Source: an uncultured Oscillospiraceae bacterium (lineage in GTDB: Bacteria > Bacillota > Clostridia > Oscillospirales > Oscillospiraceae). From it: 64,000 nt of DNA. The number at the start of each line of letters is the position of its first letter. The first letter of the stretch is position 1. The stretch is from contig CANQSF010000008.1 in assembly GCA_947626345.1 (NCBI GenBank), positions 1 through 64,000 on the forward strand, read 5' to 3'. The notes beneath the pieces were generated by a model, which was not told the DNA's origin, searched no databases, and saw only the letters and a program-made list of their open reading frames with translations. The position numbers and the translations under genes are program-made. Shown one piece after another: positions 45,348-60,601 of the stretch.

Positions 45348-45381
45348 AAAAAAGAGCATGGCCGGAGGTGTCATCCAATAA
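45348..45381. other. attL of the serine-recombinase island
   Basis: Host half AAAAAAGAGCATGG (45348-45361), core CCGGAG (45362-45367), then the island half gtgtca plus TCCAATAA (45374-45381). The matching junction is at 60567-60601. Confidence 0.85.
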
Positions 45382-45421
45382 AACAAGTTTAGATTGTTTT
45401 CGGAGTGCGGCATGATTTCGG

Positions 45422-47359
<1,938 letters not shown>

Positions 47360-47367
<8 letters not shown>

Positions 47368-47746
47368 TGAGCACCTCCCTGTTTTTCTTGGAAATCCTTG
47401 CGGCTTTTCCTTCCCATTTGGTTTCTTCTTTCAAGCGCCCTCTGAGTGCATCGTTTACCTGAGCCATGTCTGCATGAAGCTCTGCGATGTCCTCGGCATA
47501 GAAATGACTGGTGTTCTTCATGCGAGAGGCAATCTGGTTTATGTTGCTGCCGATTTTGCTCACTGCGGCACACAGCTTCCGCAGCTCGGTGTAGTCCACA
47601 TTGATAATGTAACCGTCGATCAGCATCTTGCGGGCATACGACCCGAAGTTGTGCGTCCCAAGCTCCGCCATCTTGGATTTGATGATCTGCTCCTCCTGTT
47701 CGGTCAGGCAGATTTCCTTACGGATTGGTCTTACTCTGTTTGCCAT
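47360..47746 (-). CDS. MobC-like relaxosome accessory protein
   Basis: This 128-residue protein has the MobC pattern: RKEICLTEQEEQIIKSKMAE, FGSYARKMLIDG and KIGSNINQIASRMN-like KIGSNINQIASRMK. MobC helps the relaxase open oriT. The relaxase gene that normally follows is missing here. AGGAGG precedes the ATG. Confidence 0.8.
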
Positions 47747-47805
47747 ATTCGATTCCTCCTTTGGCTGGCAATAGATTTTCAGGTGAGAGGGTATTTCCTC
47801 ACTAT

Positions 47806-48238
47806 ACAACGGACATCTCCGCGCCCTTTTGGGGGTATGCCATCGAAAATATCCCTCTATAAGACAACGGACATTTTTGCGGCGAATAACAGGGCATACC
47901 GAAAGAAAATTTTCCGAAGACGAGAATACCCCTCTACTTTACAACGGACATTTTTTCGCCAAAATGCACCCCTTTAAATTGTAAAATTTTTATGAACAAC
48001 AGTTTCCTCGCTCAATTTACAACGGATAAAATAAAGCCGTTTGACGGGGCATCTCTATTCAAAAACTAAGTCTCTCTATATAACAACGGACACTTCAGAG
48101 CAAAAACTTGACATCTGGAGTGAAATTTTTTCGGGAACCCCCTCACTTTACAACGGACATAAATTGCCCGAAACGCAGGTATCGCCAGAAGAAAATTTTA
48201 TCAAGCAGCGAACATCCCCTCTATTTTACAACGGACAT
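47806..48238 (+). repeat. Diverged tandem array built on ACAACGGACAT
   Basis: Copies of ACAACGGACAT or close variants start at 47806, 47864, 47941, 48019, 48083, 48150 and 48228. Spacing is 58-78 bp. The units share more: the 11-mer is usually preceded by CCTCTA or CTCACTTT and followed by TTTTTTCG, with a GAAAATTTT box mid-unit. The array is noncoding and AT-rich. It could be iterons, an oriT region or an RNA-producing array; it is not a CRISPR array because the conserved block is short and spacers are related to each other. Confidence 0.8.
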
Positions 48239-48280
48239 TTTTTCGACAAATGAGGGGGTGCTGAGAAAGATTATTTTGAG

Positions 48281-48420
48281 AACAGCGGCATCCTCTACTT
48301 TGAAAAGCCGAGGATGCCGCTGTTGCATGGATACATTTTGGGAAGAACAGCAAGCAAATCCGCTGTCCGTACACAGCGGAAAAATGACCATCCTCCACGC
48401 CGCAGAGAACGGTCATTTTT
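48281..48420. other. Cluster of strong hairpins after the array
   Basis: A perfect 15-bp stem (48281-48295 and 48310-48324, 14-nt loop) is followed by an 8-bp stem near 48365-48380, then a terminator-like stem with arms AAAAATGACC (48380-48389) and GGTCATTTTT (48411-48420). This region could encode a small structured RNA. I do not recognise a family. Confidence 0.5.
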
Positions 48421-48466
48421 ATTCGTGGGATAGTCCCACACCCTTATAGAAATCCGTCAAGGTCTC

Positions 48467-48495
48467 TTGATTTCATTCGTGTTTTCGAGTATAAT
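48467..48495 (+). promoter_or_regulatory. Promoter of the small HTH gene
   Basis: TTGATT (48467-48472), 17 bp, and a perfect TATAAT (48490-48495) on the plus strand, 38 bp before the ATG. It may also read into the defence operon. Confidence 0.75.
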
Positions 48496-48532
48496 ATGCT
48501 TGTTGAATTATAGGGAAAAGGGGCGATGGAAG

Positions 48533-48733
48533 ATGAAATATCTGTCTGTCCGGCAGACATCGGAACGCTGGGGCATCTCCACCCGGCGCATACAGATTCT
48601 TTGCTGCGAAGGTCGCATTCCCGGAGCGGTGCGGATAGGCTATGCATGGGCAATTCCTGATGACGAGCCAAAGCCAAAGGACGCGAGAATCAAGAGTGGG
48701 AAATATATTAAGGCTACGGCGTCGAAAGAGTAA
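48533..48733 (+). CDS. Small excisionase-like HTH protein
   Basis: This 66-residue protein begins KYLSVRQTSERWGISTRRIQ and continues with CCEGRIPGAVRIGYAWAIP. This is the winged-helix MerR/excisionase pattern of proteins in clostridial mobile elements. It could be the recombination directionality factor or a regulator of the downstream operon, which starts 58 bp later. Confidence 0.7.
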   Translation: MKYLSVRQTSERWGISTRRIQILCCEGRIPGAVRIGYAWAIPDDEPKPKDARIKSGKYIKATASKE

Positions 48734-48791
48734 TGCTTTAATATAAGAATATTTCAACGCACTTCAAATCTATCGTGGTGGGGGGAAAATT

Positions 48792-50252
48792 ATGAGGGAA
48801 CGAGAAATGCCGCCTTTTGCTCCGGTATTGATGGAGTCAACAAGGGCTATTGGATATAGCTTAGAAGCCGCCATTGCGGATTTGATCGACAACAGTATCG
48901 CGGCTAAAGCGGGAAAAGTCCAACTGTTTTTCTTCCCGGTAGATGACGCATATGTGTGTATTCTTGACGATGGCTTTGGAATGGACGATACTCAAATAGA
49001 CCGAGCTATGCAGTATGGCAGCATGAGTCCAAGTGAAGTTAGAGAATCATCTGATTTAGGGCGATATGGCTTGGGATTAAAAACAGCCTCTTTGTCGCAG
49101 TGCCGTGTGTTGACTGTTATAAGCAAGCAGGACAACTGCATAGCAGGGCGGCAGTGGAATTTAGACTATGTCGCAAAAACAGGCAAATGGTCACTGCTCA
49201 TTTTAGACGAAGATGAATTGGACTCCGTACCGCATATTTCTGATTTAAAGAAACAGGATCACGGAACACTTGTTGTCTGGCAGAAACTCGACCGCCTTAT
49301 GATAGGAGAACTTGATTTTGAAAAATCGTTTGGCCGCAAAATGGATGCAGTTCGCAGCCATCTTGAACTTGTTTTTCATAGATATCTTACAGGCGAGCAA
49401 GGGATAAAAAAGCTTGAGATCGATTTTAATGGCGTCAAAATTAACGCGGCAGATCCATTCCTGTTGAAGAAAAGTACACAGGCTATGGATACTGAGACGC
49501 TAATTGTAAGAGAAAAGAAAATACTTGTTAAACCCTACATATTGCCGCATATTTCTAAGCTTACAGACGCTGAGAAAGAACAACTTGGAGGCAAAGAGGG
49601 TATCCGCAAAAATCAAGGATTTTATGTGTATCGAAATAAACGGCTTTTGATTTGGGGAACGTGGTTCCGCATGATGCGCCAGGGGGATTTATCAAAACTT
49701 GCGCGTATAATGGTTGACATTCCAAATGATCTTGATGACTTGTGGACCCTTGACATTAAAAAATCTCATGCAATCCCCCCGGCAGAAGTACGGCAAAACC
49801 TTCAGGTGGTAATAGATAGAATTGCAGATAAAAGTAAAAGGACATGGACGTTCAGAGGAAAAAAAGAAACTTCGGACTCAGTTGAGCATATGTGGTTCCG
49901 CTTGAAAACCCCGAATCAAGGCGTGACATATGAAATTAACCGAGACCATCCTCTGGTAGAACAGATTGTTCGTGCATTCCCAGCAACAAAAACAAAAGTA
50001 GAGACCCTGCTGAGATATATTGAGCAAAACATTCCGCTGAATCAGTTGTATGTTGACTTAAATAATGATGAAAAAATTGAAAATGACTCAGGTGTTAAAG
50101 AAGCGGACGTAAAAAGCACTTTGGAACAGCTGCTTTCTTCTATGACAAGCAAAATTGAAAAAGCAGAGTTCCTTACGCAAATTGAACACACTGAACCATT
50201 TTGCTTTTTTCCTGAAATCATTAAGCAGTTTATGGAGGAGAATTCCAAATGA
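48792..50252 (+). CDS. GHKL (MutL/MORC-like) ATPase of a defence operon
   Basis: This 486-residue protein has a GHKL ATPase fold: N-box AAIADLIDNSI (Asn34), DDGFGM (59-64), and the lid GRYGLGLKTAS (90-100). The layout fits MORC/MutL-type ATPases linked to restriction systems. ATP binding would close a dimer clamp on DNA. The C-terminal half is not recognised. Its stop overlaps the Z1 gene start (ATGA). It is the first gene of the operon. Confidence 0.85.
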   Translation: MREREMPPFAPVLMESTRAIGYSLEAAIADLIDNSIAAKAGKVQLFFFPVDDAYVCILDDGFGMDDTQIDRAMQYGSMSPSEVRESSDLGRYGLGLKTASLSQCRVLTVISKQDNCIAGRQWNLDYVAKTGKWSLLILDEDELDSVPHISDLKKQDHGTLVVWQKLDRLMIGELDFEKSFGRKMDAVRSHLELVFHRYLTGEQGIKKLEIDFNGVKINAADPFLLKKSTQAMDTETLIVREKKILVKPYILPHISKLTDAEKEQLGGKEGIRKNQGFYVYRNKRLLIWGTWFRMMRQGDLSKLARIMVDIPNDLDDLWTLDIKKSHAIPPAEVRQNLQVVIDRIADKSKRTWTFRGKKETSDSVEHMWFRLKTPNQGVTYEINRDHPLVEQIVRAFPATKTKVETLLRYIEQNIPLNQLYVDLNNDEKIENDSGVKEADVKSTLEQLLSSMTSKIEKAEFLTQIEHTEPFCFFPEIIKQFMEENSK

Positions 50253-52981
50253 TGAACCCAAACATTGCTATGCTGGAAAGCGTTATTTCAGCAGCGGTAA
50301 GCACTCAGTACAAAGATGTCCCGCCTACGGAAGAAGAATTTAATGTGCTTGCAGCGACAATGCGTAGTAATATGGCTAGCTTTCCTGTGAAGGATGACGA
50401 ATTTGTTGATATTCTTTTTAGGCTCAGGTCAACAATAGTAATTCAAATGGATGTCGGCGTGTTCATCAACGACCGTAATACTCCGCATAAGTCGTGGTTG
50501 CCGGCAAGGAAAGCGGATTTGGATTTCTTCTTTTGGAAAAGATATAAAAGGTATCTCGAAGAAATAAAGCATTGGAACCCTCGCGTAACAGCTACTCTCG
50601 ATAAGGTGTCCGATGAAATAGTCGATCTTTTGGGGGATCCACACAGCGAAAACCCATTTCAACGCAGAGGATTAGTCCTTGGTGATGTTCAATCTGGAAA
50701 AACGGCAAACTATACTGCCATTTGCAACAAGGCGGCAGACACAGGATACCGCATTATTATTGTCCTTGCCGGAATGACAGAAAATCTTCGGCAGCAGACA
50801 CAATCTCGACTGGATGCTGAATTTTCAGGGCGAAAGAGCGAATATTATCTTGACCCAAAAGCTGAACTTGAAATTAAAAATCAGCCGGTTGGAGTAGGCC
50901 GTTACGGCGTTCAAAAGCGTATAGCGGCATTCACATCTGTAACTAAAGACTTCGATATCAACGTCCTAAAAAGCAATGATCTGAACCTTCAGAGCGTATC
51001 TGATCCGGTCGTGCTCGTTGTAAAAAAGAACAAAAGTATTCTGAACAATTTAATCAGATGGCTGTCGAAAAGCAAGGATTCCGCTTCCGGAAAGATCCTT
51101 CTTCCGATGATGCTGATTGATGATGAGGCTGACAATGCTTCCGTGAATACAAAAAGTGAAGATGAAAATCCTGCGGCAATCAATGCCTGTATCCGCAGAC
51201 TTTTGAAATGCTTCAGCCAAGCATCGTATTTAGGTATTACTGCTACCCCTTTTGCAAATATTTTTATCAATCCTGAAACCGATGACGAAATGGTGGGGGA
51301 CGATCTATTCCCGCGTGATTTTATATATTCACTTGCTCCGCCATCAAATTATATTGGAGCTGACAAAATTTTTGGAGAGGTTCCGGAGTTTGCAAATGCA
51401 TTGGTTCCACTTTCCCGCGATGAAATGGATTTATTCTTTTCATTTACGCATAAAAAGACTTTGGAAGTAGACGCATTGCCTCCAAGTATGTATGAAGCAA
51501 TCAGCTATTTCTTGCTGTTCAATGTCGTTAGAGATATTAGAGGAGACCTAACCGAGCATCGCTCAATGATGATTCATGTAAGCCGTTTTATTGACGTACA
51601 AAATCAAATTACAGATCTTGTCAACGAATGGCTGGTACAAGTTAAATCTGATATTCTTAATTATGCAGCTTTGTCGGCTGAGGAACGTGAAAAAATCACA
51701 AATTTAAAATATCTGCAAAAGATTTGGGAAAAGAACAACCTTGAGCAGATCAGCGGCAAGAATTGGGATAGTGTTTGCCGTCAGTACCTTTATAAGGCAG
51801 TTGCCCCTGTAGCCGTAAGAGCTGTAAACAGTAAAACTGGAGCCACCAGTCTTGATTATTTTAACCATAAAGACGATGGGCTGCGTGTGATTGCAGTTGG
51901 GGGGAACGCACTTTCACGAGGTTTAACTCTGGAGGGGCTGGGGGTTAGTTACTTCTATCGTAAATCTCAGATGTATGATACTCTGCTTCAAATGGGAAGA
52001 TGGTTTGGATATCGGCCAAATTATGAAGACCTCTTTAAAATATGGATCGCAGAAGAAGCAATTGACTGGTATGGATATATAACGAATGCAGCCAATGAGC
52101 TGAAAGATGAAATATCCAAAATGAAACTCGCCAATCAAACTCCAATGGAGTTTGGATTGAAGGTAAGACAAGATCCAAACTCGCTTATAGCAACGGCGCG
52201 TAATAAAATGCGCTCCGCTGTCCAAGTAAGCCGCCCCATTACTGTTTCCGGAAAGCTTCTTGAAACACCTCGATTAAAGGCGAGTAATGAAATTCTCAAA
52301 GCTAATGAAAATACATTTAAGGAGTTTGTAGACAGTTTGGCGGTCGCCGGACGGTTGGATTCTTCAGAAAAACCGTATTACTGGCGCGGTGTTCCAAAGG
52401 AACTTGTTTCTCAGCTGTTGTTGGATTTTGAAACTCATCCTTGGCACTTGCAATTCCAGGGACGGGCCCTTTCAGAATACATAGATACGCAAATGAATGA
52501 TGCTCTTTGGGATGTTGCCTTGATTACAAGCGGTGACGGCAGGTCCTATTCTGAGGGGTTAAAATACGGAGACAAGGTTCTTACCATCGGCGCGACCGAG
52601 AAACGTAAAGTCATCGCTGATGATAAGATGATTAGGATAAGCGGCACAAAGATTAAAGTCGGCTCAGGCGGGTGCACAAAAGTCGGATTGACAAAAGAGC
52701 AAGTCAGAGATGCAGAGCAGAGGTTTAAAGAGCTGAATGGAAATAAACATATGTCAGACAGCGCATATCTCATCAAAGAACGTAATCCGTTGCTGATGCT
52801 GCATATCATTGAGGTTGATTTGCTTGAGCAGGAATCAACAAGCGTGAATGTTCCACCGTTTTTATTCGCATTAGGTGTCGGCTTTCCTGATACGGGCGTT
52901 GGAACCAAGAAAGCAAACTATGTAGTCAATATGGTGGAGCTTAAAAATTGGATGGATCCGGACGAGGAAGAAGACGAATGA
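50249..52981 (+). CDS. Z1-domain P-loop ATPase
   Basis: This 910-residue protein has Walker A GDVQSGKT (Lys151, Thr152) and a DEAD-like Walker B LIDDEADN (about 291-296). Helicase-like motifs LGITATPFANIF and the Z1 segments GGNALSRGLTLEGLG and QMGRWFGYR follow. Z1 proteins are superfamily-II-like ATPases always found in restriction or defence operons. It is probably the motor that works with the GHKL ATPase and the nucleases. Confidence 0.9.
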   Translation: MMNPNIAMLESVISAAVSTQYKDVPPTEEEFNVLAATMRSNMASFPVKDDEFVDILFRLRSTIVIQMDVGVFINDRNTPHKSWLPARKADLDFFFWKRYKRYLEEIKHWNPRVTATLDKVSDEIVDLLGDPHSENPFQRRGLVLGDVQSGKTANYTAICNKAADTGYRIIIVLAGMTENLRQQTQSRLDAEFSGRKSEYYLDPKAELEIKNQPVGVGRYGVQKRIAAFTSVTKDFDINVLKSNDLNLQSVSDPVVLVVKKNKSILNNLIRWLSKSKDSASGKILLPMMLIDDEADNASVNTKSEDENPAAINACIRRLLKCFSQASYLGITATPFANIFINPETDDEMVGDDLFPRDFIYSLAPPSNYIGADKIFGEVPEFANALVPLSRDEMDLFFSFTHKKTLEVDALPPSMYEAISYFLLFNVVRDIRGDLTEHRSMMIHVSRFIDVQNQITDLVNEWLVQVKSDILNYAALSAEEREKITNLKYLQKIWEKNNLEQISGKNWDSVCRQYLYKAVAPVAVRAVNSKTGATSLDYFNHKDDGLRVIAVGGNALSRGLTLEGLGVSYFYRKSQMYDTLLQMGRWFGYRPNYEDLFKIWIAEEAIDWYGYITNAANELKDEISKMKLANQTPMEFGLKVRQDPNSLIATARNKMRSAVQVSRPITVSGKLLETPRLKASNEILKANENTFKEFVDSLAVAGRLDSSEKPYYWRGVPKELVSQLLLDFETHPWHLQFQGRALSEYIDTQMNDALWDVALITSGDGRSYSEGLKYGDKVLTIGATEKRKVIADDKMIRISGTKIKVGSGGCTKVGLTKEQVRDAEQRFKELNGNKHMSDSAYLIKERNPLLMLHIIEVDLLEQESTSVNVPPFLFALGVGFPDTGVGTKKANYVVNMVELKNWMDPDEEEDE

Positions 52982-53919
52982 AAATAACGGCTGAACAACT
53001 TCATAGAAAATGGAGTTCCATCGATTACTATGATGGCGGATATATTCAGATAGAAGCACAGCACCCTCTGGATTGGTTTGTGGGGTATGAAAAAGTCAGT
53101 CAAAAGGCCCTTTTAATTATTTCTGAAAAAGAGCCGGAGCTCCTGCCGACCTCTAAATCAATTATTGTTTCTAAACGGCTGCGCGCGGATAATAAATGGA
53201 CTTTATTACTGACACTGATGCGGACAGAGCAGGAAAGCGTTTTTGAAACGCTGTGTGCTGACATTATTACATATTCAGGGACAGCCGAAGACGAGTCGTC
53301 TGCCTTGGCTTTAACATTAAAAAGATATAAGCAATGGAATAAACTGCTTGAATATCAGAAAAAAGGGTTGATGGACGAAAGTAGCCGCAAAGGCTTGCTG
53401 GGAGAGTTGATATATCTTTGTCATGTTATAAAAAACGGATACCCAGTTTTATCTGCGGTACAAGGATGGGTTGGGCCAGATGGGGCTGATCAGGATTTTG
53501 TGTATGCTGACGGATGGCACGAGATAAAATCTATAGGTTTATCTGCTGCGTCAATTACCATTTCATCTTTGGAACAGTTAGACAGAGAAGATCCGGGTGA
53601 AATTGTTGTTATGCGCATTGATAAATGCGCACCGGAACGCAATGGCACTTTTTCTCTTGGTGATCAGGTGGATGCAGCTATGAATCTCATTAAGGGGGAT
53701 TCTGACGCGCTGTCTCTAATGGAGCGTAAACTTGCAAGCTGCGGATATATTGATTTGCCTGAATATCGGGAACAGAAATATATTCTCTCAGGAGAATCAC
53801 ATTTTACGGTAGATTCAAGTTTCCCAAAACTTACTGGAAGCTCAACACCAGCACAGATTATTTCAGCACAATATGTCATCAGCCTTTCAGGTATTGAAGG
53901 CTGGCGGTTGGAGGGGTAA
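52978..53919 (+). CDS. PD-(D/E)XK motif protein (DUF4420 type)
   Basis: This 313-residue protein has the nuclease core LLGELIYL (Glu143), then DFVYADGWHEIKS with Asp173, Glu182 and Lys184, a complete PD-(D/E)XK set. It belongs to a group of restriction-fold proteins usually encoded next to Z1. It is the likely DNA-cutting subunit. The ATG overlaps the Z1 stop. Confidence 0.85.
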   Translation: MKITAEQLHRKWSSIDYYDGGYIQIEAQHPLDWFVGYEKVSQKALLIISEKEPELLPTSKSIIVSKRLRADNKWTLLLTLMRTEQESVFETLCADIITYSGTAEDESSALALTLKRYKQWNKLLEYQKKGLMDESSRKGLLGELIYLCHVIKNGYPVLSAVQGWVGPDGADQDFVYADGWHEIKSIGLSAASITISSLEQLDREDPGEIVVMRIDKCAPERNGTFSLGDQVDAAMNLIKGDSDALSLMERKLASCGYIDLPEYREQKYILSGESHFTVDSSFPKLTGSSTPAQIISAQYVISLSGIEGWRLEG

Positions 53920-53924
53920 AACAT

Positions 53925-55997
53925 ATGGACGCGCAGGAATTCAGAAAAGATTTTCTTGAAAATGTAAAGGCAGAAGCTGCAGCTACTGGGGAGGGCTCCT
54001 GCGCATCGTTCGTGGAATATATGGCACAGTATCTCGTGGAAGCAGAAGTGCTGCCGGATTTCAATTCATCTTTTTATACTAATACGTCAGGCAGAAAGAA
54101 GTACCGAGTAGATGGGTACGCACTTGATGAGTTTGACTTTACCATGAATTTGATCATTGCGGATTATGATGGGATAGATGAAAGAACGTTGACGAAATCT
54201 GTTGCGAATAATGATTTTTTAAGGCTTGCTTTGTTTGTTGACCAAGCGTTGACCAGCAGCCTTTATAAAGAAATTGAAATGAGCACTCCTTGCGCAGACC
54301 TTGTTGATATGCTTCGCTCATATCGTGACCGCATACGCAAATACAGACTTATTATTTTTACTGATGCAGAAATGAGCGGGTCAATTACTGCGTTGGACAA
54401 TCTTGTAATCTGTGGAGTTGAAGCAGAATGCCAGATTTGGGATATCGACCGTCTTTATCGAGTCTGTTCATCTGATTTGGGAAGGCAGGACATAGAGATA
54501 AATTTCCGCGATTACACAGGCGAGGGCATCCCTTGCCTTGAAGCGAGCAGCGCGGCCACCGCAGAGTACAATAGTTATTTATGCATTATTCCGGGAGAGG
54601 TATTGGCTGATATATATGATAAATATGGAAGTCAGCTTCTCGAAGGGAATGTGCGTTCATTTTTATCGACCAAGGTGGCCGTAAACAAAAAAATCCGTGA
54701 AACTATTTTACGAAATCCATCTATGTTCTTCGCGTATAATAATGGCGTTTCTGCAACAGCAAAAGAAGTCGAAATCGAATCGACAGAAAAAGGAAACTTT
54801 ATTATTGGCGCAAGGGACTTTCAGATAATAAATGGCGGTCAAACAACAGCATCGCTCTCAAATACGAGATATAAAGACCGGGCAGATCTCCGCGGAATAT
54901 ATGTGCAGATGAAGCTGACAGAAATTGATGAGAGCGATCCGGATCGTTCTACAGAATTAATAAGAAATATTTCACGTTCATCAAACAGTCAAAATAAAGT
55001 AAGCGATGCTGATTTCTTTGCCACTCATCCGTTCCATGTCCGTATAGAGCAGTTCTCACGCAGAATATTTGCACCAGCGGAAGCTGGTGCTCAGTATGAA
55101 ACAAAATGGTTTTATGAACGCGCCAGAGGACAATATCTTCAGGCGCAAATGCGTTTGACACCTGCTAAGAAAAAGCAGTTTGCTTTACAGAATCCAAAGA
55201 ATAAAGTCATTACTAAAACAGATTTAGCGAAGGTCAGAAATACTTGGAGCGGATATCCGCAGATCGTAAGCAAAGGAGCTCAGACGAATTTCATGAAATT
55301 CGCTGAGCTTATTGGTGAAGTATGGGCAGAAAAAGACTACGTTTTCAATGAACGTTATTTTACCGAATCAGTTGCGCTCATGATCCTTTTTAAACATTTG
55401 GAGGCAATGATTCCTAAACAATCCTGGTACGAACAAGGATACAGGGCAAATATTGTTACATACTCTATTTCTCTTCTTAGGCTGCTGATAAAGAGGCAAT
55501 TCAAGGATATGGATTTGGATTTGCAGGGGATTTGGCAGCGGCAAAGTGTTCCTGATATTATTTCAAAAGTCCTTGAAGATATTTCTGAACAGGTATTTCG
55601 TAAAATTACTGATCCGAGCAGGCAAACCATTAATGTTACTCAGTGGTGCAAACGGGATGCCTGCTGGAAAAGCGTCCAAGAAATAGATATTCGCCTTCCG
55701 GCTTCATTTACAAGTGTGTTGATCAGCAAAGCGGAAAAGAAAACTGCTGAAAGCGAAGCAAAACAAGATCAACGGATTATTTCCGGTGCAGAAGCCCAGA
55801 CGAGTGTGCTTGCATACAACGCCGAGCAGTGGCGAAAGTTGTCAGAGTTTGCTGCACAAAAGAAAATGTTGAGTCCTGATGAGATGACAGCATTAAGATA
55901 TGCGTGTCAAATACCAAACAAAATTCCAAGCCCTTATCAAAGCCAACGGTTGTTAGGACTTCTTGAGAGAGTTTTCGCAGAGGGATTTAAGTTCTGA
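53925..55997 (+). CDS. AIPR-family (abortive phage resistance) protein
   Basis: This 690-residue protein matches the AIPR family by its core NPSMFFAYNNGVSATA, INGGQTTASL and SRSSNSQNKVSDADF. The first AIPR proteins were linked to abortive phage infection in lactococci. The biochemical activity is unresolved; a nuclease-like fold has been proposed. Its place between the PD-(D/E)XK and methyltransferase genes ties it to the same system. Confidence 0.9.
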   Translation: MDAQEFRKDFLENVKAEAAATGEGSCASFVEYMAQYLVEAEVLPDFNSSFYTNTSGRKKYRVDGYALDEFDFTMNLIIADYDGIDERTLTKSVANNDFLRLALFVDQALTSSLYKEIEMSTPCADLVDMLRSYRDRIRKYRLIIFTDAEMSGSITALDNLVICGVEAECQIWDIDRLYRVCSSDLGRQDIEINFRDYTGEGIPCLEASSAATAEYNSYLCIIPGEVLADIYDKYGSQLLEGNVRSFLSTKVAVNKKIRETILRNPSMFFAYNNGVSATAKEVEIESTEKGNFIIGARDFQIINGGQTTASLSNTRYKDRADLRGIYVQMKLTEIDESDPDRSTELIRNISRSSNSQNKVSDADFFATHPFHVRIEQFSRRIFAPAEAGAQYETKWFYERARGQYLQAQMRLTPAKKKQFALQNPKNKVITKTDLAKVRNTWSGYPQIVSKGAQTNFMKFAELIGEVWAEKDYVFNERYFTESVALMILFKHLEAMIPKQSWYEQGYRANIVTYSISLLRLLIKRQFKDMDLDLQGIWQRQSVPDIISKVLEDISEQVFRKITDPSRQTINVTQWCKRDACWKSVQEIDIRLPASFTSVLISKAEKKTAESEAKQDQRIISGAEAQTSVLAYNAEQWRKLSEFAAQKKMLSPDEMTALRYACQIPNKIPSPYQSQRLLGLLERVFAEGFKF

Positions 55998-56023
55998 ATA
56001 CGCAGGGAAAGAGGAAAAGAAAA

Positions 56024-57628
56024 TTGTATACAGTCATAGATTTGTTTGCCGGAGCGGGAGGCTTGAGTCTCGGCTTTGCGCAAACACAAAAATTTGAAAT
56101 CAAAGTTGCATTTGAGAACAGCCCTTATATGCAGGAAACATACCGCAATAATCATCGAAACGTAGATGTTATGGGGGATGTTTGCGCTGCTGATTATACG
56201 GAAATCAAAAGAAAATACGGAGATATTGATGTCGTTATTGGCGGTCCCCCCTGCCAGGGGTTCTCTAATGCAAATCGGCAGAAGAATCATGCTGTCAGCC
56301 AAAATAATATGCTTGTAAAACAGTATCTCCGTGCAATTCTTGAACTGAAGCCGAAAGCATTTGTTATGGAAAATGTAAGCATGCTGAAGTCAGAAGTTCA
56401 CAGATTTTATATGGAAGATTTGGATGTCAATGTTGTTCAGCAGTATGACATTCCTGTAAAAGTTACGCCTCTAATTTTGCTTGATGAACAATACACGTTT
56501 GACGGTGTTATAGACATTATCCAAGATCCACAGAAGATTGCAGCATATATTTGGGATGAAAATGACTATTTTGAATTGAATGTCATATATAAAGCATCAA
56601 AAAGCAATGATAAGCTGGAAAAGGCGCTTGAAAAGCATGAAGCAAGTTTGAAAAAAATTATCAAGAAGCAGCTTAAGAAAAATGATACGGGATATATATC
56701 TACGGAGTCAAGGAAAGCCTTTTCCGCTGTCTCTGCTTTCTATGAGGGAAACCTGTCGGCAGACAAAATTAAGCAGCAAATTGAACCAGCTGTTATGCTT
56801 CAGAGAATGCTCAGCAAAGCACAGGAAATATATAATAATCGTATCATTGTGGATTCGTATTCATCAACAAAAGGCGTTGCGGCTAACATTAAGTCATTTT
56901 CGGTGTTCGATTATTTAAAAAATATTTTAGAAAAAATAGAGGATGGATATGTAATTGACAGTGATGTTTTATGTGCAGCAGATTATGGGGCCCCACAAAA
57001 AAGAATGCGCTTTGTTGTTGTCGGTATAAAAAAGAGCATATCACCTAAGATAGCACTGCCAAAAGGTCAATTCGACAAAGATGAGTACCGAACTGTCAGA
57101 AATGCAATAGAAGATTTGGAAGATGTGGATCCTGTTTTTGATTTGGACGATGAAAGAAAAGGTATTGCGCTTCCCTCAAAAGAGCTATGTGGAGAGCTCG
57201 CTTTATATTTAAGAGATTCAACAATACTTAGAAACCATATCGTTACAAAGACAACAGACACCGCTATGGATCGATTTAAGGCGCTCAAGCAGGGAGAAAA
57301 TTTCCATTCGCTTGACGAGAGCATGAAATCAAATACGTATACTGATGCCTCTCGGACGCAGAACACGATATATCTTCGCTTAAATTATGATGAACCCAGC
57401 GGCACCGTTGTAAATGTTCGGAAATCTATGTGGATACACCCAACTTTAAACAGGGCAATCAGCGTGAGAGAAGCTGCGCGGCTGCAAACTTTTCCTGACA
57501 GCTTTGTTTTCTGTGGCACTAAAGATAAACAGTATCAGCAGGTCGGGAATGCGGTGCCTCCTATTATGGCAAAGGCTATTGCAGAGAAATTGGCAAAGAT
57601 ACTTAACGATAATTTACCAAAGGACTGA
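56024..57628 (+). CDS. DNA (cytosine-5) methyltransferase
   Basis: This 534-residue protein has all main C5-methyltransferase motifs: I, DLFAGAGGLSLGF; IV, GGPPCQGFS with nucleophile Cys77; VI, ENV (Glu116); VIII, QKRMR; IX, SVREAARLQTFPDSF; and X, QVGNAVPP. Unusually, about 200 residues of lysine-rich sequence separate motifs VI and VIII, longer than usual. The start is TTG with GAGG ten bases upstream. It should mark self DNA. The recognition sequence is not predictable. Confidence 0.95.
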   Translation: MYTVIDLFAGAGGLSLGFAQTQKFEIKVAFENSPYMQETYRNNHRNVDVMGDVCAADYTEIKRKYGDIDVVIGGPPCQGFSNANRQKNHAVSQNNMLVKQYLRAILELKPKAFVMENVSMLKSEVHRFYMEDLDVNVVQQYDIPVKVTPLILLDEQYTFDGVIDIIQDPQKIAAYIWDENDYFELNVIYKASKSNDKLEKALEKHEASLKKIIKKQLKKNDTGYISTESRKAFSAVSAFYEGNLSADKIKQQIEPAVMLQRMLSKAQEIYNNRIIVDSYSSTKGVAANIKSFSVFDYLKNILEKIEDGYVIDSDVLCAADYGAPQKRMRFVVVGIKKSISPKIALPKGQFDKDEYRTVRNAIEDLEDVDPVFDLDDERKGIALPSKELCGELALYLRDSTILRNHIVTKTTDTAMDRFKALKQGENFHSLDESMKSNTYTDASRTQNTIYLRLNYDEPSGTVVNVRKSMWIHPTLNRAISVREAARLQTFPDSFVFCGTKDKQYQQVGNAVPPIMAKAIAEKLAKILNDNLPKD

Positions 57629-57632
57629 GACA

Positions 57633-58052
57633 ATGGCAGATAATCTTACAAAAGAAGTTCGCAGCATGAATATGTCGCATATTCGAAGCAAGAACTCTAA
57701 ACCGGAAGAGATTGTTCGCAAGTTTTTATTTGCAAATGGTTTTCGGTATCGAAAGAATGTAAAATCACTGCCCGGCTGCCCTGATATTGTATTGCCAAAA
57801 TACCATACCGTGATTTTTGTTAACGGTTGTTTTTGGCATAAGCATAATTGCTCCAGATTTGTTTGGCCGACATCAAATCAGGAATATTGGCGTCAAAAGA
57901 TTCTGCATAATGTGGAAAGAGACAAGCGTAATACTGATCTGCTTCAGCAAACAGGATGGAACGTTCTCATCGTTTGGGAGTGTGAATTAAAGGCAAAAAG
58001 CAGAAGCGAAACCTTGCAAAGAGTCATTGCAGAATTGGAGGGTACACGGTGA
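57633..58052 (+). CDS. vsr: Very-short-patch repair endonuclease
   Basis: This 139-residue protein has the Vsr pattern: SHIRSKNSKPE, the catalytic Asp51 in LPGCPDIVLP, and FVNGCFWHKHNC with the zinc and catalytic His. Vsr nicks T:G mismatches that arise when 5-methylcytosine deaminates, so it partners the methyltransferase four bases upstream. In such operons Vsr-fold proteins may instead serve as a restriction nuclease. Confidence 0.9.
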   Translation: MADNLTKEVRSMNMSHIRSKNSKPEEIVRKFLFANGFRYRKNVKSLPGCPDIVLPKYHTVIFVNGCFWHKHNCSRFVWPTSNQEYWRQKILHNVERDKRNTDLLQQTGWNVLIVWECELKAKSRSETLQRVIAELEGTR

Positions 58053-58795
58053 ATACAACAAATAGAGCTTTATCAATTATTGCGTTTTATTTGTCTGAAT
58101 ATGATATGAAAGCAGTCAATGCCTTGGGGTTTCAAACTCGCAGTGAAGCGATCAACAGCATTTCTCACAATGTAGGAAATGGCAATAACTATTTAAAACT
58201 CAGGCGTGATGAGTTTGATGCCCTGCCTGAAAGCTCAAGTTCAAGAAAAGGGTGGAGAAATAGACCGCCTATTAGAGAAGTCGTTGAGATGGCCGCGTAT
58301 TTACGACAATTTTCATTTGATGAAATAACTGACATAGTTAAAGCACTTATAGAACATGAAGACAGTATCCCTGTTAATTTAACGGATTCGCAGAACGACT
58401 CTGTTTTGGATACAGTGGATGAAAATGAATTTGAAAGTTTAATTAATTTTTCTGATCCGACTGCAAGACTTGTTGTTAAAACTGAAACAGGCACTTATCG
58501 AGTATACAATCAATCAAAAGTAGTACAGTTGAAAATATTATATCGCGGATGCTGTCAAATATGTGGGATTAATCCGGTAGCACAATTCAATACCAATATC
58601 TGTGAAGCTCACCATATTTTGCCTTTTTCGGAATCTCAAAACAACGATTCAAATAATATCATAATTTTATGTCCTAACCACCATAGATTGATACATAAGC
58701 TCAAACCGGATTTTGACCCGGAAAAATTGACGTTTTCGGTGAAGGGTAAAGACATACTGCATGTAGTATTAGACTACCATTTGAGACGGAATTAG
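58049..58795 (+). CDS. HNH endonuclease
   Basis: This 248-residue protein ends in an HNH domain: CCQICG, CEAHHILPF, NIIILCPNHHRLIH. The N-terminal 140 residues are not recognised and may bind DNA or partners. The start is GTG overlapping the vsr stop (GTGA), so it belongs to the operon. A terminator follows. It could be the operon's restriction nuclease alongside the PD-(D/E)XK protein. Confidence 0.85.
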   Translation: MNTTNRALSIIAFYLSEYDMKAVNALGFQTRSEAINSISHNVGNGNNYLKLRRDEFDALPESSSSRKGWRNRPPIREVVEMAAYLRQFSFDEITDIVKALIEHEDSIPVNLTDSQNDSVLDTVDENEFESLINFSDPTARLVVKTETGTYRVYNQSKVVQLKILYRGCCQICGINPVAQFNTNICEAHHILPFSESQNNDSNNIIILCPNHHRLIHKLKPDFDPEKLTFSVKGKDILHVVLDYHLRRN

Positions 58796-58830
58796 ACTAA
58801 TATTCATTATTGAATGCATTTGGGTTCATC

Positions 58831-58869
58831 AAAATCCGGGTTGACAGCAGCCCGGATTTTGTGTATACT
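58831..58869 (+). promoter_or_regulatory. Terminator hairpin with the next promoter's -35 in its loop
   Basis: Perfect 10-bp arms AAAATCCGGG (58831-58840) and CCCGGATTTT (58851-58860) form a terminator for the upstream operon. The loop contains TTGACA (58841-58846), which with 17 bp and TATACT (58864-58869) is the promoter of the HTH-YhcG pair. Termination and initiation share the same bases. Confidence 0.85.
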
Positions 58870-58899
58870 ATAATTCACCCGAAAAGGAGGTCTCTTAAA

Positions 58900-59259
58900 A
58901 TGAAGCAACTGGGTAACAGACTTCGGGCTTTGCGGGAGAGCATCAATATTTCACAATCTAAGTTGGCAGAGATCCTTGGCTCTACACAGTCCAGTATCAA
59001 CCGCTATGAGAACGGTCAGGCTACGCCTACAGTTGCACTTTTGCGGAAATATGCGGACTATTTCGATGTTTCTATGGACTACATTTTTGCCCGCTGTGAT
59101 GCGCCGCAGGGAAAGTTGTATCAGGCAGTGCCTCCCGTTTCAGATGACAACCCGGAATTGCAGAAATTTGTCGAGATGTGCTTTAATCCGGGTTCGCCCA
59201 TGAATGAGCGGTTGAAGAACACTTTGATTCGGATGTTGGAGGGGAGCATACAGGCATGA
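58900..59259 (+). CDS. XRE-family transcription regulator
   Basis: This 119-residue protein has an N-terminal HTH (LRESINISQSKLAEILGSTQ then SSINRYENGQ). The rest is not recognised. GGAGG lies nine bases before the ATG. It starts an operon with the YhcG-family gene (ATGA overlap) and is likely its repressor through the promoter hairpin. Confidence 0.85.
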   Translation: MKQLGNRLRALRESINISQSKLAEILGSTQSSINRYENGQATPTVALLRKYADYFDVSMDYIFARCDAPQGKLYQAVPPVSDDNPELQKFVEMCFNPGSPMNERLKNTLIRMLEGSIQA

Positions 59260-60272
59260 GCGAAGAATTAACCCCTAAAATGAGTCAATTTGATAAGATC
59301 ATTTCCATCATCGATCAGGCCCGCAATCGCGCTCTGAGAGCAGTCAACGCTGAGCTTATCCGGATGTATTGGGATGTGGGAGAATATCTCTCCGATCTGT
59401 GCGCATCGTCAGGCTTTGGCGACAAGGTGATTGACGAGGTCGCCGCTTATATTGCCGAACATAACCCCGGCGTCAAAGGCTTTAACCGCCGCGGACTATA
59501 TCGAATGAAGCAGTTCTATGAGACCTACAAGGACGACGAATTTGTGTCAGCACTGCTGACACAAATCAGCTGGACTAACCACCTCTTGATCATGTCCGGC
59601 TCAAAGTCCACCGAGGAGCGGCATTTTTACATGGCGCTCTGCGTAAAGGAGCATTATTCTTCCCGCGAGCTGGAACGCCAGATGGACAGCGCCTACTATG
59701 AGCGGTATATGCTGTCCAACCAGAAACCACTTCCGAATCTCGTAACAAAGGACGTGCGAAACAGTATCCTGGATTCCTATGTGCTGGAGTTTCTTGACTT
59801 GCCGAAGGATTACTCCGAGCGCAATCTGCGAAAAGCAATTATTGCAAATTTAAAGGACTTTATTTTGGAATTTGGCAGAGATTTCTCCTTTATCGGTGAG
59901 GAATACCGCATCCAAGTCGGCGGGCAGGATTTTTACATTGACCTGCTTTTCTACAATCGAGCCCTGAGCTGTCTGGTGCCTGTGGAGCTGAAAATCGGCA
60001 GATTCAAGCCGGAGCATATCGGTCAGATCAACTTCTATCTGGAGGCGCTCGACCGGGATGTGAAGAAGCCCAACGAAAATCCCAGCGTAGGAGTGATTCT
60101 GTGTGCGGCTAAGGACGATGCAGTTGTTGAGTACGCGCTCAGCCGCAGCACTTCGCCCACGCTGGTATCGAGCTATACCGAGCATTTGCCGGATAAGAAG
60201 CTGTTGGAGGAAAAGCTCCGTGAATTGACTGACCTTGCGCTGGAGATGGGAGAGGTCGAAGAAACGGATTGA
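59256..60272 (+). CDS. YhcG-family (DUF1016) PD-(D/E)XK nuclease
   Basis: This 338-residue protein has the DUF1016 N-terminal region (NAELIRMYWDVGEYL, FNRRGLYRMKQFYE) and a C-terminal nuclease core with FYIDLLFYNR and VPVELKIGRF. The Asp and Glu-x-Lys are intact. YhcG-family proteins occur in defence islands and next to mobile elements. A repair or anti-invader nuclease role is plausible. Confidence 0.85.
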   Translation: MSEELTPKMSQFDKIISIIDQARNRALRAVNAELIRMYWDVGEYLSDLCASSGFGDKVIDEVAAYIAEHNPGVKGFNRRGLYRMKQFYETYKDDEFVSALLTQISWTNHLLIMSGSKSTEERHFYMALCVKEHYSSRELERQMDSAYYERYMLSNQKPLPNLVTKDVRNSILDSYVLEFLDLPKDYSERNLRKAIIANLKDFILEFGRDFSFIGEEYRIQVGGQDFYIDLLFYNRALSCLVPVELKIGRFKPEHIGQINFYLEALDRDVKKPNENPSVGVILCAAKDDAVVEYALSRSTSPTLVSSYTEHLPDKKLLEEKLRELTDLALEMGEVEETD

Positions 60273-60345
60273 GGCACGTATCTTGGAGCGTTTGGTGCGG
60301 ATAGAACAACAAAAAGGCACTGGAAGTTTAATTTGGAGATGGGGT

Positions 60346-60429
60346 ATGGAAACAAAAGAGTATATGTCATTGGAAGTAGCGGCCGAAAAATGGCATAGTA
60401 AATCTTGGTATGATGTTCAAACGGCTTAA
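60346..60429 (+). pseudogene. Short HTH-like fragment near attR
   Basis: A 27-codon frame reads ETKEYMSLEVAAEKWHSKSW and ends soon after. The start is like excisionase HTH proteins (compare the 48533 gene) but the recognition helix is missing. GGAGATGGGG precedes it. Probably a broken excisionase-like gene. Confidence 0.4.
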
Positions 60430-60474
60430 TTCCTTGATTGCAACAAAAAAATGATAACATATCACAAAGAGAGT

Positions 60475-60505
60475 AGCCATACCCGGAAACTTTCCGAGTA
60501 TGGCT
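60475..60505. repeat. Hairpin near attR
   Basis: Arms AGCCATAC (60475-60482) and GTATGGCT (60498-60505) are perfect and continue inward with few mismatches. No T tract follows on either strand. Confidence 0.5.
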
Positions 60506-60529
60506 GTTCTCCTTGTTGCACCCCTGTTT

Positions 60530-60582
60530 GGCAGCTACCCAATGTCAGTATTGTTTTGATACTGTCTTATTGGAAGCTACCC
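60530..60582. repeat. attP arm repeats
   Basis: GG-c/a-AGCTACCC occurs as direct repeats at 60530-60540 and 60572-60582. Between them CAGTAT (60546-60551) and ATACTG (60559-60564) form an inverted repeat. These look like extra recombinase or directionality-factor sites beside the crossover. Confidence 0.55.
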
Positions 60583-60601
60583 GGAGCCATGCTCTTTTTT
60601 T
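60567..60601. other. attR of the serine-recombinase island
   Basis: Island half TTATTGGA plus agctac, core CCGGAG (60581-60586), host half CCATGCTC followed by seven T (60587-60601). It pairs with attL at 45348-45381. Confidence 0.85.

Follow-up and report, generated by a model that had tools for sequence, protein, structure and literature searches.

Judged by its protein sequences, the seven-gene operon described here from an uncultured Oscillospiraceae bacterium is an MZA-like system and not an undescribed one. We consider it likely that the locus is an ATP-dependent 5-methylcytosine (5mC) restriction-modification (R-M) system that acts against phages and is carried on a mobile island. What the sequences themselves show is the gene content with its intact motifs, the linkage of every complete core examined to a C5 cytosine DNA methyltransferase (MTase), the joint divergence of the core proteins, the exchange of the MTase between cores, an MTase insertion that is confined to MZA loci, the dispensability of the HNH protein and the insertion of the island. 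The kind of system is already known, from the type II loci of Miller et al. (2022) and the predicted operons of Iyer et al. (2008). An earlier note on this DNA had predicted an R-M or defence unit, and it is supported in part, as detailed below.

Results

Operon organization and relation to MZA

The window, that is the whole stretch of 64,000 nucleotides analysed, contains the operon as seven intact open reading frames on the plus strand at positions 48792-58795, as the earlier note had placed them (Table 1). The gene junctions that it described were found again (ATGA at 50249-50252, ATGA at 52978-52981 and GTGA at 58049-58052), and the other intergenic gaps in the operon measure 4-26 bases. 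Start codons were corrected to the ATG at 52978 for MzaD, to 57633 for Vsr and to the TTG at 56024 for the MTase. The defence-database search that had been proposed returned MzaB, MzaC, MzaD and MzaE as best PADLOC models for the first four genes (E-values 1.3e-92, 7.7e-124, 7e-23 and 8.7e-72), and these homologues stand in MZA order. With the NCBIfam Mza models (NF041932-NF041935) all four proteins score below the equivalog cut-offs (354.8 bits against 850 for MzaB, 516.9 against 1500 for MzaC, 118.9 against 420 for MzaD and 334.7 against 1050 for MzaE). Pfam assignments are in line with these matches (HATPase_c_3, 7e-34; Z1, 3e-77; DUF4420, 2.6e-57; AIPR, 7e-101; AIPR_N, 3e-39; DNA_methylase, 2e-64; Vsr, 2e-32; HNH_2, 5e-7), and the Vsr protein exceeds the NCBIfam cut-off for TIGR00632 vsr (152 bits, cut-off 97.85). 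The MzaA sigma factor, sought next to MzaB, is absent; the gene upstream of 48792 is an HTH_17 excisionase-like gene. Sigma factors are annotated in the relatives L050 and L055. The best solved relative of the MzaB-like protein by sequence is MORC2.

Table 1. Coordinates of the operon genes and of the mobile island in the window.
Feature	Position	Strand	Basis
MzaB-like GHKL ATPase (MORC/MutL type), 486 aa	48792..50252	+	PADLOC, NCBIfam, motifs
MzaC-like Z1-domain SF2 helicase/ATPase, 910 aa	50249..52981	+	PADLOC, Pfam, SF2 motifs
MzaD-like PD-(D/E)XK nuclease (DUF4420), 313 aa	52978..53919	+	PADLOC, Pfam, invariant motif
MzaE-like AIPR protein, 690 aa	53925..55997	+	PADLOC, Pfam, AlphaFold2 model, motif counts
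C5 cytosine DNA methyltransferase, 534 aa	56024..57628	+	Pfam DNA_methylase, motif spacing
Vsr very-short-patch-repair endonuclease, 139 aa	57633..58052	+	TIGR00632, Pfam Vsr
Accessory HNH endonuclease, 248 aa	58049..58795	+	Pfam HNH_2, BLASTP
Integrated mobile island carrying the operon, ~15.2 kb	45362..60586		CCGGAG repeats on both sides, empty site
Large serine recombinase (Resolvase, Recombinase, Zn-ribbon, DUF4368)	45422..47152	-	Pfam

The operon lies on a recently inserted mobile island

The GC content of the region is 39-44%, compared to roughly 60-66% for the chromosome, and besides the large serine recombinase the island encodes a MobC/NikA-like protein and the HTH_17 excisionase-like protein. 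The empty site is present in a genome of the same genus (G971, locus L134) as an intact bidirectional terminator hairpin, GCAAAAAAGAGCATGGC-GCG-GCCATGCTCTTTTTT, and it is the loop of this bidirectional transcription terminator hairpin that is split by the island. The operon is part of this recently inserted mobile island. Two further observations concern its other sequences. Between the MobC/NikA-like and the excisionase-like genes (window 47801-48247) lie six to seven TTTACAACGGACAT-like repeats with irregular spacing; possible roles are those of an origin of transfer, of iterons or of an array bound by a recombinase. A second small operon of the island (window 58900-60272) consists of a gene for an HTH_3 regulator that overlaps the gene for a YhcG/DUF1016 PD-(D/E)XK protein, the latter being a PADLOC candidate (PDC-S02, 1e-125).

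A core of four genes and a methyltransferase recurs in 44 loci

Relatives were gathered with the Z1 protein and then with a Z1 alignment; the search covered plasmids, viral contigs, public genomes and a sample of genomes from the class and phylum of the host. MzaB was rejected as locus marker: a search with its profile in the taxonomic family of the host gave, besides this locus, only short GHKL-domain matches, and Z1 was therefore used for collecting loci. The Z1 alignment search yielded 31 loci from viral contigs, which may contain host DNA, and when these contigs were scanned with the single sequences of Z1 and HNH nothing was found; ORFs in unannotated loci are assigned by profile match alone. 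The earlier note would have been refuted by homologues that never co-occur elsewhere. They clearly do co-occur: the complete GHKL-Z1-DUF4420-AIPR core was found in 44 loci from several phyla, this one included, which are not phylogenetically independent of each other. In eight loci (this locus, L038, L047, L060, L061, L071, L073 and L074) the genes for MzaB to MzaE (B-C-D-E), the MTase (M) and Vsr (V) share a strand and are arranged as B-C-D-E-M-V, whereas lineages with another layout have M (and V) upstream or on the opposite strand. A C5 MTase is encoded in the fetched flank of all 44 complete loci, usually adjacent to the core, and Vsr accompanies 31 of them. Roughly 16 C5 MTase genes were counted in 20 related genomes and the host genome has only that of the operon; because C5 MTases are this rare, the linkage of MTase and core is not a matter of chance. 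The locus L039 comprises M-B-C-D-E alone and is flanked by unrelated genes. Compact M+BCDE units of this type suggest that no classical Type II restriction endonuclease (REase) is needed. The recurring unit proposed in the earlier note is thus confirmed for the B-C-D-E core with its C5 MTase, usually joined by Vsr, but not for the set of seven genes, as the full HNH protein occurs only here.

MzaD is the candidate cutter and the AIPR protein a probable pseudo-nuclease

In the GHKL protein the motifs D30/N34, DxGxG (59-63) and GxxGxGxK (90-97) are conserved in 49-50 of 50 sequences. The motifs GKT, DDEAD, TATP and QMGRWFGYR of the Z1 protein are intact and its SF2 motifs are invariant in 21 aligned sequences. 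Comparison with relatives shows that the PCQ and ENV motifs of the MTase are intact and that Vsr has kept its conserved residues. For MzaD, the putative active site E143-D173-E182xK184-Q200 is invariant in 49/49 sequences, and by these alignments MzaD is the only predicted nuclease that is both always present and equipped with an invariant active site. Hence, the earlier statement that all catalytic motifs are intact applies to the GHKL, Z1, MzaD, MTase and Vsr proteins, but not to the AIPR protein, whose N-terminal domain lacks an ExK. The AlphaFold2 model of this protein, MzaE (mean pLDDT 84.6), predicts a restriction-endonuclease fold for residues 1-186; the AIPR domain spans residues 239-564. 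Structural matches of the N-terminus are AF1548 (Z 9.9; 117 residues aligned, 3.2 A), FokI (Z 9.7; 153, 4.2 A), AspBHI (Z 9.0; 132, 3.7 A) and MspJI (Z 8.4). However, when the catalytic ExK was sought in 45 sequences, neither E nor K proved to be conserved on the strand that should carry them. The MzaE N-terminus is therefore probably a pseudo-nuclease, with a predicted non-catalytic role in DNA binding, structure or regulation. Residues ~209-364 have weak matches to PadC (Z 5.6) and ParB-N (Z 5.1), which perhaps reflect only a common arrangement. A possible link of the AIPR domain to the nucleotide-binding fold of ParB/GmrSD is hinted at by these weak matches and, by eye, by the motifs NNG, NGGQT and NxQN; hhalign gave a blank result, but its ParB-GmrSD positive control failed as well, so that this comparison lacked power. 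Among solved structures, none with sequence similarity to AIPR or Z1 was found. As an observation beyond this locus, the predicted restriction-endonuclease fold without ExK in the AIPR_N region (PF22879) of MzaE (window 53925-54480) could also be of relevance to further abortive-infection proteins of the AIPR type.

The methyltransferase has been exchanged between cores and carries an insertion

Normalised pairwise distances from 26 loci show that B, C, D and E co-diverge (Spearman 0.63-0.78) and that the MTase does not follow the core (0.07-0.21), although MTase distances saturate between subfamilies and the low coefficient hence makes exchange look freer than it is. In close clades the MTase stays with its core. 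Between L101 and this locus, in contrast, the MTases are 70% identical while the core proteins share 27-39%. In trees of 12 loci, calculated for Z1, AIPR and MTase, L101 falls outside the clade of this locus for Z1 and AIPR (support 100/100 each) and inside it for the MTase (94/97). Tree placements and identities together demonstrate that the MTase has been exchanged between distant cores.

The MTase also contains an insertion of ~190 amino acids between motifs VI and VIII (residues ~125-315, window 56396-56968), so that 208 residues separate these motifs here, compared to 41 in shorter relatives such as those of L058 and L059. Among 398 genomes of the phylum, 4 gave a match to a profile built from the insertion, all four matches being in MZA loci, and in plasmids the profile matched only the two MZA loci. 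Between this locus and L038 the insertion is 53-70% identical, and most of the flanking catalytic stretches are 83-100% identical. The insertion diverges faster than the catalytic motifs, and it is predicted to fold into a largely helical domain (pLDDT ~90), in an MTase model built from 5 sequences that is confident only in the insertion and poor in the catalytic C-terminal half. The C5 MTases of other core lineages lack the insertion, which is thus a lineage feature. We infer that the insertion contacts the Mza complex.

Vsr is a probable repair enzyme and HNH an optional accessory

In L038 the core is 88-95% and the MTase 81% identical to that of this locus; there an unrelated gene of the opposite strand comes after Vsr, and HNH is missing. 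All 43 other complete loci are devoid of the full HNH protein, and it was therefore rejected as a core subunit. Its N-terminal domain is shared with a NOV_C/DUF3883 protein (BLASTP, 30% identity over 106 aa, 4e-15), whose gene immediately precedes that of MzaB in an MZA operon from Hymenobacter. Because of this shared domain, HNH looks like an accessory module able to carry different nuclease domains. Vsr had been counted as a possible third restriction nuclease. This is disfavoured by the MZA locus L072, which has no Vsr and in which a gene for a HhH-GPD glycosylase (L072:6457-7182) adjoins that of the MTase, as expected if the Vsr slot serves the repair of deaminated 5mC. The idea in the earlier note of three nucleases sharing the work is hence retained in part: MzaD is always present with its invariant site, but Vsr appears to occupy a slot for 5mC-mismatch repair and HNH is optional. 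Independently of this, the MZA locus L055, which also has a C5 MTase, contains an AspBHI-like endonuclease of the modified-cytosine-dependent type (L055:14508-15677), and proteins with possibly similar N-termini are encoded at L056:14528-15748 and L113:6562-7755.

Discussion

Comparison of the 44 loci suggests a division of labour within MZA-like systems, with the MTase providing the self-mark, MzaD cutting, the AIPR protein being a pseudo-nuclease, Vsr acting in repair and extra nucleases being add-ons. According to this model, the C5 MTase would mark a specific sequence in host DNA as self, and MzaB-C-D-E would be the restriction side that engages DNA without the mark. The GHKL protein, a bacterial relative of the MORC chromatin ATPases, may close as an ATP-driven clamp, as judged from MutL and MORC, and the Z1 ATPase may translocate or remodel DNA, as judged from the Z1 ATPases of CglI and NgoAVII, which have been characterised biochemically. 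Cutting would be the task of MzaD, the DUF4420 PD-(D/E)XK protein, to which the invariant active site points. Its predicted structure makes the AIPR protein a probable subunit for DNA binding or regulation without catalytic function of its own. Vsr would mend T:G mismatches arising from deaminated 5mC and would not be a restriction nuclease, while HNH would be an optional accessory nuclease. The insertion in the MTase is a likely site of its contact with MzaB-C-D-E.

Since the name AIPR is short for abortive infection phage resistance, one may ask whether MzaE, or else HNH, attacks host nucleic acid once an infection has been sensed by the remaining subunits, with the MTase as regulator or antidote. 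Apart from the name of the domain, AbiU as second PADLOC match would fit such a function. However, the nuclease-fold domain of the AIPR protein is devoid of an ExK in 45 sequences, the nuclease that is always present with an invariant site is MzaD, and the linkage of an MTase to all loci is easier to reconcile with a distinction between self and non-self, so that we regard abortive infection as very improbable. It is somewhat easier, yet still unlikely, to see two independent systems on one island: a Type II 5mC R-M system with a V gene, formed by MTase, Vsr and HNH, beside MzaB-E as a methylation-independent anti-phage system. The three 3'-terminal genes of the operon, for MTase, Vsr and HNH, would amount to a textbook R-M set, the phylogeny of the MTase is decoupled from that of the core, and in some relatives a Type II REase adjoins the MTase (EcoRII-C in L050). 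Together with the AspBHI-like enzyme of L055, the latter makes a separate R-M pair beside MZA possible in some loci. Against this stand the presence of a C5 MTase with 44/44 cores and of the full HNH in 0/43 others, including L038, as well as the restriction of the MTase insertion to MZA loci and the existence of a compact M+BCDE locus without extra REase (L039).

A single ATP-dependent 5mC R-M system is thus the reading that we prefer, and a more specific version of it can be put forward tentatively, although we find it rather doubtful. Here, MzaB-C-D-E would be a general ATP-driven cutter without a fixed target, and the MTase would be an exchangeable specificity subunit that docks via the MZA-only insertion, marks self and supplies specificity, a logic similar to that of BREX. 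The discrepancy between MTase and core identities in L101, the fast evolution of the insertion, which is predicted to be helical and occurs only in MZA loci, and the fact that no core subunit tracks the MTase distances are in line with this idea. However, docking by the insertion is not universal, because the C5 MTases of other core lineages do without it. Furthermore, the L101 MTase may recognise the same sequence as the one described here, in which case no transfer of specificity is needed, and in CglI/NgoAVII it is the nuclease subunit and not the MTase that reads the site (PMC4267653). If true, this would be a distinct ATP-dependent restriction architecture, with a PD-(D/E)XK nuclease under the control of GHKL and Z1 ATPases and, beside it, an inactive AIPR subunit of restriction-endonuclease fold.

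MZA-like systems occur widely. For mzaABCDE, PMC9523054 cites Gao et al. (2020) and reports that the anti-phage function has been validated. No mechanistic study of MZA-like systems was found in the literature searched. A nanopore study found modification sites at GCAGC in mza-encoding strains and describes mza as methyltransferase-encoding (PMC10687267). With MZA (mzaABCDE) our locus shares the four proteins B-C-D-E in identical order, with the best-scoring models for all four, but it is devoid of MzaA, scores below the equivalog cut-offs and has a C5 MTase, Vsr and HNH in the operon. Miller et al. (2022; PMC9523054) described a MZA-like 'type II' putative defence system, with subtypes II-A and II-B, that is ~20% identical to mzaBCDE and mostly lacks mzaA. 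Its parts, a Z1 protein of ~925 aa, a PD-(D/E)XK protein, a cytosine MTase, an AIPR protein and a MORC-family protein, all recur here, and the operon differs in adding Vsr and HNH at the 3' end. As for the regulator of the Miller type II system, a HTH_3 gene is located downstream (58900-59259, overlapping YhcG), and no regulator gene immediately precedes that of the GHKL protein. The paraMORC/MORC neighbourhoods that Iyer, Abhiman and Aravind (2008; PMC2292703) predicted to be R-M operons comprise a GHKL protein, a SF2 helicase whose C-terminal domain has the motif DThhQxuRhFG, an E-D-ExK nuclease, DNA methylases and Vsr, and some of them, in a figure, AIPR. All these components recur in our locus; added here are the test across 44 loci, the MTase linkage, the exchange and insertion of the MTase and the recognition of HNH as a one-locus accessory. 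Compared to a Type II 5mC R-M system with a V gene, MTase and Vsr are present, but HNH, the candidate REase, is absent from close relatives. The nearest biochemical precedent for the ATP-dependent 5mC R-M reading is CglI/NgoAVII, where N.CglI and N.NgoAVII require ATP hydrolysis for cutting at unmethylated GCCGC and the C5 MTases act on GCSGC (PMC4267653). As described, these are three-gene systems that have a B3-PLD nuclease instead of DUF4420 and neither a GHKL nor an AIPR subunit, but they have in common with the locus presented here a C5 MTase, a Z1-domain SF2 ATPase and a separate nuclease, with ATP-dependent cutting of unmethylated sites as the activity that our locus would share.
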